NCBI GenBank assembly: GCA_945875435.1 | Contig: CAMCKH010000001.1 | Location: 186,001 to 250,000 of the forward strand | Reading direction: 5' to 3' | Length of the DNA: 64,000 nucleotides | Source of the DNA: an uncultured Erysipelotrichaceae bacterium | GTDB lineage: Bacteria; Bacillota_I; Bacilli_A; Erysipelotrichales; Erysipelotrichaceae | Shown here: one piece after another, positions 19,741-38,304 of the stretch | Position numbering within the stretch: the stretch's first letter is position 1 | Layout of the letters: every line of letters starts with the position of its first letter | The notes under the pieces: generated by a model | Told to the model about the DNA's origin: nothing | What the model saw: only the letters and a program-made list of their open reading frames with translations | Database searches by the model: none | Made by a program: the position numbers and the translations under genes

Positions 19741-19983
19741 AAAACTCGCCCTATAAGGACGAGGTTAAATTCCCGTGTTACCACCTTAATTGTAAAATAA
19801 ATAAATATTTTACCGCTCTTTAAGATCTATCAATCTCTAACCTTATAACGTAGGTGTACGGCGTTGGCTTATCACCAACACGACTCCAAGACCATCTTCA
19901 TTTATTTCTAGCTTGCAACACTTTCACCCGACTATTGCTCTCTACAAAAGCTTCTATAAACTACTCTTCTTTTCTCTGTCTTT
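19741..19983 (-). promoter_or_regulatory. T-box leader (tRNA-Met) of metNIQ
   Basis: On the minus strand the T-box AAGGTGGTAACACGGG is followed by the terminator CTCGTCC/GGGCGAG plus T7 (19744-19764 and beyond). An AUG at 19895-19893 in GAAGATGGTC fits the specifier position for methionine. Uncharged initiator or elongator tRNA-Met would promote readthrough into metN. This ties methionine uptake directly to tRNA charging. Confidence 0.88.
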
Positions 19984-19989
19984 ATTAAG

Positions 19990-20018: not shown

Positions 20019-20054
20019 ATATTTTTTTGAAAAGTTAAGGGTTAAATGATAAAT

Positions 20055-20300
20055 CTATTTAGAAAGTCCTTTGTTTAATGGATTTTTCTGTGAAAAATTT
20101 ATGAATATTGTACAGTTCATTTGATGTTTTATAATCAAAAATACCCTAGGATAATTATTGATAAAATCTTTAATTCCTAAAATATATTTTTCATCATAAT
20201 TTTCTATTGGTTCAAATTTTGGGATGTATCTTCTAATCATTTTAGCAAAACACAACTTGTATTCTACACCTGATTTAGTATTACCATATTCATCTTTTTT
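20055..20300 (-). pseudogene. Unassigned reading frame, possible frameshifted tail of the upstream gene
   Basis: This open frame continues from the stop of the 120-residue gene but in another frame: KKDEYGNTKSGVEYKLCF, then IRRYIPKFEPIENYDEKY and a tail ending LNKGLSK. The apparent upstream part of the frame (to 20366) overlaps coding sequence of the neighbour and is probably a shadow. No SD precedes an internal ATG. I do not recognise the sequence. It may be a separate decayed gene. Confidence 0.3.
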
Positions 20301-20744: not shown

Positions 20745-20873
20745 AGTGAAAAGTTAAAAAATGTATATCCAACAAAAGAAAATAAGACATCATCTATTTT
20801 ATACAAACAAGTAGGTAATAGTATTGTTGTAGATGTCTTAGAGGCGATATTAAAACAAATATTGTTACTATAA
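20745..20873 (+). pseudogene. C-terminal stump of a cytosine-C5 DNA methyltransferase
   Basis: One frame reads VYPTKENKTSSILYKQVGNS followed by IVVDVLEAILKQ and a TAA at 20871. This is the motif X region of Dcm-type m5C methyltransferases (xQxGNSVxVxVxxxI), in which the helix completes the AdoMet pocket. In-frame stops lie just upstream (20742), and no motif I-VIII is present, so only the last 40 or so codons survive. It marks a lost restriction-modification or prophage gene. Confidence 0.75.
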
Positions 20874-20916: not shown

Positions 20917-20945
20917 TTTACAATAATAATTATAAATGCTAAAAT
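20917..20945 (+). promoter_or_regulatory. Strong promoter of the structured RNA
   Basis: TTTACA (20917-20922), an exact 17-nt spacer, and an extended -10 TGC-TAAAAT (20937-20945). The predicted start is near 20952. Confidence 0.7.
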
Positions 20946-20951
20946 TTATAT

Positions 20952-21156
20952 GTAAGATAAGTACAGAGGATATGGGAAATCCTTGTCCTTAACAAGTTTA
21001 TACTTGTGTGTTGTCAGGGGTTAGAAATATAGGCAACGCAGCGAAACCCATTACCGTTTATGTTTATCGGTAGACCCAGAGCATAGGTGAGAGTAGTATT
21101 ACCAAGAATATGCGAAAAACAATCAAAAGATTAGATTAAGTCTAATCTTTTTTATT
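20952..21156 (+). ncRNA. Structured non-coding RNA, about 200 nt (raiA-motif-like candidate)
   Basis: The RNA is bounded by a good promoter and a perfect terminator and contains no credible ORF. Visible helices in order are GGAT/ATCC, CTTGT/ACAAG, GGGTT/AACCC (which encloses GGCAACGCAGCGAAA), TACCG/CGGTA, and GCATA/TATGC around GGTGAGAGTAGTATTACC. A GTTG upstream can pair with the CAAC inside the third hairpin, giving a pseudoknot-like arrangement. It is not tmRNA, SRP RNA or RNase P: none of their core motifs occurs. Size and compact multi-helix form suggest the widespread Firmicute raiA motif, but I cannot confirm this from memory of its consensus. Confidence 0.7.
21126..21156 (+). terminator. 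Terminator of the structured RNA
   Basis: AAAGATTAGA, a TTAAG loop and TCTAATCTTT, followed by TTTATTTT. Confidence 0.9.
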
Positions 21157-21207
21157 TTAAGAAGAAATATGGAAAAACAAAATAAAATAATTAATATTTT
21201 AAAAGAA

Positions 21208-21229
21208 AAGCCCCTATTTATAGGAACTT
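21208..21229 (-). terminator. Terminator of the polysaccharide operon
   Basis: On the minus strand AAGTTCCTAT pairs with ATAGGGGCTT (two G-U pairs), followed by TTCTTTT, just after the rmlB stop. Confidence 0.75.
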
Positions 21230-21243
21230 TCTAATAAATGTTA

Positions 21244-37812: not shown

Positions 37813-38304
37813 CTACTCTGCAACCTTAACCATTGCAGCTCTTAAAATGCGATCTTTTAATTTATATCCTTTTTGATATACTTCAACAACAATACCTTTT
37901 TCTACACCTTCAATTTTCTCAGCCATTATAGATTGCATAAATGCTGGGTCAAATTCTTTATTTAACGCTTCAACTTCAGCAACGCCTTCTTTATTTAAAC
38001 TGGTTATTAATTGATCGTAGATCATTTTAATTCCAGAGCGATAACTTTCGCTAACTCCTTCTGCTTCATTTGCGATAGCACGTTCTAAATTATCAATGAT
38101 TGGTAAAATATCCAATGCGAAACTTTGAATTCTATATTTTCTTAAAGTTTCTGCTTCTGCATTCAATCTTTTTCTGATATTTTCAGTATCTGCATAAGCC
38201 ATTGCATAACTATTTTTTAATTTTTCATTTTCGGCTTTTAATTTTGAAATCTCATCATCTTCTTTTAAATCAATTTCTTTTTCTTCGTTGACTACTTCTT
38301 CCAT
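37813..38304 (-). CDS. grpE: GrpE nucleotide exchange factor
   Basis: GrpE releases ADP from DnaK. The 163-residue protein has an N-terminal acidic coiled coil (EKEIDLKEDDEISKLKAENEKLK), then DTENIRKRLNAEAE and FALDILPIIDNLERAI, and a beta domain ending in GYKLKDRILRAAMVKV. Its start touches the hrcA stop. Confidence 0.96.
   Translation of the reverse strand: MEEVVNEEKEIDLKEDDEISKLKAENEKLKNSYAMAYADTENIRKRLNAEAETLRKYRIQSFALDILPIIDNLERAIANEAEGVSESYRSGIKMIYDQLITSLNKEGVAEVEALNKEFDPAFMQSIMAEKIEGVEKGIVVEVYQKGYKLKDRILRAAMVKVAE

Follow-up and report, generated by a model that had tools for sequence, protein, structure and literature searches.

In this study, we examined an RNA gene in a 64,000-nucleotide stretch of DNA from an uncultured Erysipelotrichaceae bacterium (contig CAMCKH010000001.1, positions 186,001 to 250,000; the whole stretch is called the window, and plain coordinates refer to it), and we relate it to the gene that its homologues precede. 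We propose that this RNA, at 20946-21153 (+), belongs to a new family that acts as antitoxin to PBECR4 (PF18813) toxins in a locus resembling type III toxin-antitoxin (TA) systems, with the window copy as a solitary member. Judged from sequence comparison and from analogy with described systems, we put the probability of this reading at about 0.7. Its starting point is what the loci display: homologous RNAs of conserved structure, a constant order of RNA, terminator and gene, a mobile context, and in the window a truncated toxin gene. Because the homologues, in distantly related bacteria of gut and mouth and on their transferable elements, sit directly before the gene of a predicted RNA-cutting toxin, the RNA is most likely that toxin's antidote and would neutralise the PBECR4 protein.

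A conserved RNA upstream of PBECR4 genes

Protein searches gave relatives in Streptobacillus notomytis, Parvimonas parva (two), Catonella morbi, Streptococcus suis, an Erysipelotrichaceae metagenome-assembled genome (MAG; two), a Tissierellia MAG and genome G110, and Fusobacterium hwasookii and F. nucleatum plasmids carry further ones. On C12, a conjugative element of the same genome as the window, the third PBECR4 paralogue is also preceded by a related but diverged RNA, as is a fragment on C18. In these loci, which span Bacillota and Fusobacteriota, a covariance model (R1) identifies 21 RNA copies, 16 before intact and five before truncated PBECR4 genes; 21 homologues in all is a small number, and many of the loci come from MAGs. 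At each of the 16 intact genes of this group (group A) that were examined, the RNA lies immediately 5′ of the gene and on its strand. Three of these genes are on C12, four on the Fusobacterium plasmids, two each in Parvimonas and the related Erysipelotrichaceae MAG, and one each in G110, Streptobacillus, Catonella, Streptococcus suis and the Tissierellia MAG. The order in each homologous locus is RNA, terminator, ribosome-binding site (RBS), start codon. Three R1 matches lie outside the training set: one is an additional Streptobacillus copy (E 1.4e-15), and the F. hwasookii plasmid supplies the others (6.6e-13 and 3.2e-12).

In a search of 316 genomes of the order, strong R1 matches were confined to this genome (G000), G017 and G110, where each adjoins a PBECR4 gene or its remnant. 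Weak matches in G051, G185 and G268 (E ~0.005) were taken as chance, no PBECR4 being found in those genomes, and the eight genomes of the order of G540 gave no match. Viral contigs scanned with proteins and motifs yielded one weak PBECR4 relative (L084) without this RNA; a motif match there (L089) lies inside a coding region and was dismissed as chance.

The constancy of this arrangement bears on two other accounts of the RNA. A free-standing housekeeping RNA does not fit homologues that always precede a PBECR4 gene, truncated in the case of the window. Alternatively, the RNA could be an independent small RNA of conjugative elements, serving transfer, replication or incompatibility control or acting as a base-pairing regulator, with PBECR4 a mere neighbour. 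Its occurrence on conjugative elements and plasmids, and its survival without an intact toxin in five cases, would suit such a role. However, every locus seen has PBECR4 beside the RNA, in both Bacillota and Fusobacteriota and with constant strand and order, on elements that otherwise differ, and unrelated RNAs fill the same slot before other PBECR4 genes. We therefore consider an independent small RNA very improbable.

Truncated toxin genes follow the RNA at four places besides the window: on C12 (RNA at C12:15268-15464), where the toxin start reads MSFNILKQILLL and then stops; on C18, with 65 aa left; at Streptobacillus 4442 (MNNEYKVLDNFHSIDSIE, then stop); and at F. hwasookii 36957 (MTNRTYKVQEFF, then stop). 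All five RNAs with a truncated toxin gene, the window copy included, retain their pairings.

Two features of the RNA genes themselves were also observed in these relatives. On the F. hwasookii plasmid (L104 ~37950-38180), the 5′ half of the RNA is tandemly duplicated upstream of the third PBECR4 gene. Further, the RNA genes of Fusobacterium and Streptobacillus have TCTAGTC both in the -35 region and in the terminator (L104 ~16950 and ~17970; L105 ~32830; L077 ~4750). Short direct repeats thus bracket the gene, and these might drive its duplication or excision.

The RNA gene in the window

The gene has a promoter at 20917-20945 (+), with a -35 TTTACA (20917-20922), a 17-nt spacer and an extended (TG) -10 TAAAAT (20940-20945), TGCTAAAAT. 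Judged by consensus matches, it is the single promoter 5′ of the RNA, as the type III layout demands. Among the homologues, 15 of 19 have a promoter match of at least 9.5 out of 12.5 upstream, compared with 2% of control windows. Within the RNA, delimited with R1, a core (~20951-21077) is followed by a 3′ domain and the terminator; 20951-21077 scores 66.6 bits (E 3.5e-14) in R1, a model to whose training set the window belongs. The fold is better than that of dinucleotide shuffles (z = -3.1; one shuffle in 200 equally good). An intrinsic terminator with a 12-bp AU-rich stem and six U occupies 21125-21153 (+), as seen from the sequence and from terminator statistics over PBECR4 genes. In these respects the locus agrees with the preliminary description, which had called it a structured RNA with its own promoter and terminator.

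The same description had stated that no gene follows on this strand. Instead, an RBS-like AGAAG and the start of a PBECR4 gene lie behind the terminator (21160-21234, +), the latter recognised by its match up to 21206 to the 450-aa PBECR4 protein of C12. The remnant begins at 21169 and comprises the first 12-13 codons (MEKQNKIINILK), is cut by a junction at 21206, and continues into a foreign EKPLFIGTF and a stop.

With Rfam 15 searched at the gathering score and at E<=10, no family matched the RNA at cut-off, known riboswitches included, and only chance-level matches (sraA, LhrC, a microRNA, a ctRNA) appeared at E<=10. The RNA is thus not described in Rfam, in line with the preliminary description, which saw in it no core motifs of tmRNA, SRP RNA, RNase P or familiar riboswitches. 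The suggested identity with raiA (RF03072) is unsupported, since raiA is absent even from these chance-level matches.

Structure and covariation

Structurally, the RNA of the window family is a double pseudoknot, as both a long-range helix from the loop of its first hairpin and a second helix that crosses P2 are supported. The P1 hairpin (20967-20983, +; AGGAU/AUCCU) carries the loop AUGGG (20972-20976), which pairs with CCCAU (21047-21051) just 5′ of P4. When loop and target were taken from the same sequence, complementarity was 13.97, against 10.16 ± 0.56 with permuted sequences; all 20,000 permutations stayed below the native value. On the R1 alignment, which is independent of this helix because the helix was left out of the covariance model, 80.3% of cells are paired versus 63.1% in shuffles; the covariation score is 0.658 versus 0.329 ± 0.042, and shifting the partner by one to three columns lowers it to 0.23 or below.

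The second, H-type pseudoknot (20986-21020, +) joins UCC (20986-20988) to GGG (21018-21020), with 96.5% of cells paired and both sides changed in two sequences. It crosses P2 (21008-21039, +), in which GUGUUGUC (21008-21015) pairs with GGCAACGC (21032-21039; permutation test, 0 of 20,000). The P2 loop carries the most conserved motif of the family, GGGGUYAGAARUAY (21017-21030), with invariant columns, and the GGG of the pseudoknot is part of it. All five pairs of the P4 hairpin (UACCG...CGGUA; 21052-21072, +) vary on both sides among homologues. Two hairpins are more local: AACAAG...CUUGU (20991-21007, +), limited in the alignments of homologues to the copies of this genome, and P5 (GCAUA...UAUGC with an inner GGU/ACC; 21081-21113, +), which is drawn from a single-sequence fold and one comparison, with the other element copy (GCAAA...UUUGU).

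Taken over the whole structure, 82.0% of cells are paired compared with 67.8 ± 1.1 in shuffles. The five helices were first derived by eye and tested afterwards, and the permutation tests are uncorrected for relatedness; pairing partners nonetheless change many times across two phyla. The helices and possible pseudoknot of the preliminary description are thus confirmed. So is conserved covariation in relatives, there named as the mark of a new RNA, with 20 of 24 pairs showing changes on both sides across homologues.

Origin of the window copy

The segment 20764-21206 (+) is 97.5% identical by blastn to C12:28188-28631. C12 is a conjugative element by inspection of its open reading frames (ORFs), which encode VirB4- and VirD4-like proteins, a mobilisation-like protein and an IS30-like transposase. 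There, an intact C5-cytosine DNA methyltransferase gene precedes the RNA (its protein matches PF00145 at 2.1e-59), and behind RNA, terminator and RBS follows an intact gene of 450 aa with a PBECR4 match of 2.9e-19. Besides the window copy, the genome thus has two more copies, both on C12, one identical over the RNA and the other 95% identical over the 5′ 140 nt; the paralogue after the second C12 copy has 228 aa and matches PBECR4 at 8.1e-21. In the window, comparison with C12 identifies the 3′ end of the methyltransferase gene at 20787-20873 (+; ending TSSILYKQVGNSIVVDVLEAILKQILLL, then stop), and degenerate IS30-family transposase fragments that adjoin the RNA locus (20019-20244) match the IS30 region of C12. 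On these two matches, we read the window copy as a 443-bp fragment of the element, in which the RNA gene is whole but only the end of the methyltransferase gene and the first toxin codons are left. As its RNA is identical to an element copy, the fragment is, by this comparison, recent and too young to show selection in place.

Since the RNA gene is intact, with promoter, RNA and terminator complete, while the toxin gene is cut, the window copy is best read as an orphan, that is, a solitary antitoxin. For the same reason we would expect it to be transcribed. Its role may be protection against the toxin of the element, or it may be a relic. The latter, a dead and non-transcribed trace of an insertion without present function, would be compatible with an antitoxin role for the family. 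It draws on the same observations: a single end-truncated 443-bp fragment amid IS30 debris, too recent in origin for selection in place to show. Nevertheless, the completeness of promoter, RNA and terminator, and the protection that a solitary antitoxin could give against the element's toxin, speak for a working copy, and we regard a dead relic as a serious but less probable outcome.

Two neighbouring features were noted. On C12 (L025 9107-10894 and 14032-14316), several repeat-built proteins (for example with QMxQIRLGLExxxDVSIYAxPKF) adjoin the PBECR4 genes, and DUF4116 proteins occupy a comparable place on the Fusobacterium plasmids. In the window, a T-box leader (121 bits) at 19752-19985 (-) lies 5′ of a MetN/MetI/MetQ-like ABC transporter operon.

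Terminators and RNAs before other PBECR4 genes

A terminator-like hairpin lies within 90 nt of the start codon in 29 of 35 PBECR4 genes, compared with 15 of 74 other ORFs of the same loci (Fisher p = 5e-10). Of 20 loci that fall outside group A, nine have perfect tandem repeats of 16-38 nt between promoter and terminator, exceeding in length those of all 60 shuffles made for each. An Enterococcus faecium plasmid and the Streptococcus phage Javan100 (a prophage) have two repeats each, with matching stem changes (CCGGA/UCCGG and UUGGA/GCCAA). In the E. faecium plasmid NZ_OR234015.1 (L110 740-1090), a PBECR4 gene stands behind two tandem RNA repeats and a terminator; a related PBECR4 gene was seen in 76 Enterococcus plasmid records. 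At two further loci, the slot directly upstream of the PBECR4 gene is filled by a drum RNA (RF02958) above cut-off, with a terminator between (G483:C36:2704-2809 (-), L086; G549:C31:184-295 (+), L106). These are the sole above-cut-off drum matches in 395 genomes of the class, which suggests that drum RNA is the partner of one branch of PBECR4 proteins. G682 and G500 gave weak drum matches, located at a conserved oxidoreductase gene, which were taken as chance.

The position of the terminator is also an argument for the main competing explanation, a cis-acting leader that senses a ligand, a tRNA or a protein (possibly PBECR4 itself) and governs read-through without acting in trans. In most PBECR4 loci, 15-35 nt separate the terminator from the start codon, an arrangement shared with riboswitches and T-boxes; the structure of the RNA is strongly conserved; and the AbiF/RCd22 RNA also lowers transcription of its gene (PMC12373285). 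In its usual form, however, a leader should have an alternative pairing by which the terminator is opened, and complementarity of the terminator arms to their own RNA core is no higher than to the cores of other sequences: a search for a conserved antiterminator pairing found none, 8011 and 5258 of 10,000 permutations being as good as the native arrangement. Further, the tandem-repeat RNAs at other PBECR4 genes suit a stoichiometric inhibitor better than a sensor, and five RNAs have no working gene downstream. We thus find a leader unlikely, and prefer an antitoxin.

The PBECR4 protein and a proposed mechanism

For the PBECR domains of phages and conjugative elements, an RNase activity has been predicted in a paper whose main text makes no mention of an RNA partner (PMC5512222). 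The name PBECR4 was not found in the literature, in a search confined to open PMC papers, so it may be described elsewhere. PBECR4 is predicted to be an endoribonuclease of the BECR fold, and the protein would accordingly be toxic and cut RNA. It has a conserved His in an HLLGL motif. Its AlphaFold model has a mean pLDDT of 84.8 and a pTM of 0.79, and its best BFVD match (E 7e-6) is without a name.

Several observations weigh against an antitoxin in a type III-like locus. The protein has no match to ToxN or CptN in Pfam, NCBIfam, PADLOC or PDB sequences, nor one to TenpN, as far as these libraries contain it. A Foldseek search of the AlphaFold model against the PDB gave no match at E<=0.001, the ToxN/CptN fold included, which is moderate evidence given the pLDDT spread of 65 to 85 among the five models. 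Some PBECR4 genes, for example in L. salivarius and in an ffh-linked group, have no upstream RNA. Lastly, in place of an array of short repeats the window-type RNA has one ~130-nt double-pseudoknot core, with a partial duplication in one copy (F. hwasookii).

If the RNA is an antitoxin, the locus would be a two-part module of promoter, double-pseudoknot RNA, intrinsic terminator, RBS and PBECR4 gene. Most transcripts would end at the terminator and yield the RNA, and occasional read-through would yield the nuclease, so that the terminator would keep the RNA in excess. The folded RNA would bind and block the nuclease, perhaps after being cleaved by it. Carried on conjugative elements and plasmids, such a module could serve in maintenance or phage defence.

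Extending this to other loci, we lean slightly towards PBECR4 proteins being the toxins of a large, so far unrecognised class of RNA-antitoxin systems on conjugative elements, Enterococcus plasmids and prophages of Bacillota and Fusobacteriota, with a type III-like layout, a different protein and several unrelated RNA folds (double pseudoknot, tandem repeats, drum). If this is true, it would give a function to proteins so far known solely as predicted RNases of phages and mobile elements, add a new fold to the RNA antitoxins and explain at least some orphan drum RNA copies. Many conjugative plasmids, enterococcal ones included, would then bear an undescribed addiction or defence module, and the type III layout would be separable from the ToxN protein family.

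Comparison with known systems

The raiA motif RNA is likewise structured, ~200 nt long and found in Bacillota, but its Rfam model gives no match to the window RNA even at E<=10, and its genomic context is another. Drum RNA shares the position 5′ of a PBECR4 gene and terminator in both above-cut-off copies, whereas the window RNA has no match to the drum model and differs in fold and conserved motifs. A closer functional parallel is AbiF/RCd22 of Clostridioides difficile (abiF motif, RF03085), in which the RNA neutralises the toxin in trans by direct binding (PMC12373285). Here too, the gene of the toxic protein (Abi) is part of a mobile element and is preceded by a structured RNA and a terminator; the protein, however, is of the Abi_2/AbiF type with structural links to Cas13, the RNA has a short motif in two copies, and its sequence is unrelated to that of the window RNA, which lacks any Rfam match.

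Type III TA loci are defined by the order of promoter, pseudoknotted RNA, terminator, RBS and RNase-like gene (PMC5086642). ToxIN, CptIN and TenpIN (PMC5086642; PMC4627078) share with the PBECR4 loci this order, with an intrinsic terminator, and the mobile context, and also the tandem-repeat RNAs found at more distant PBECR4 genes. In the group-A loci, a pseudoknotted RNA, the presumed antitoxin, lies upstream on the same strand at all 16 intact genes, with a Rho-independent terminator between. The difference lies in the protein, without sequence or fold match to ToxN or CptN. Because the protein falls outside these families and the window-type RNA has no tandem repeats, we describe the locus as being like type III: by analogy, it most likely works as a type III system does, without being a member of ToxIN, CptIN or TenpIN.
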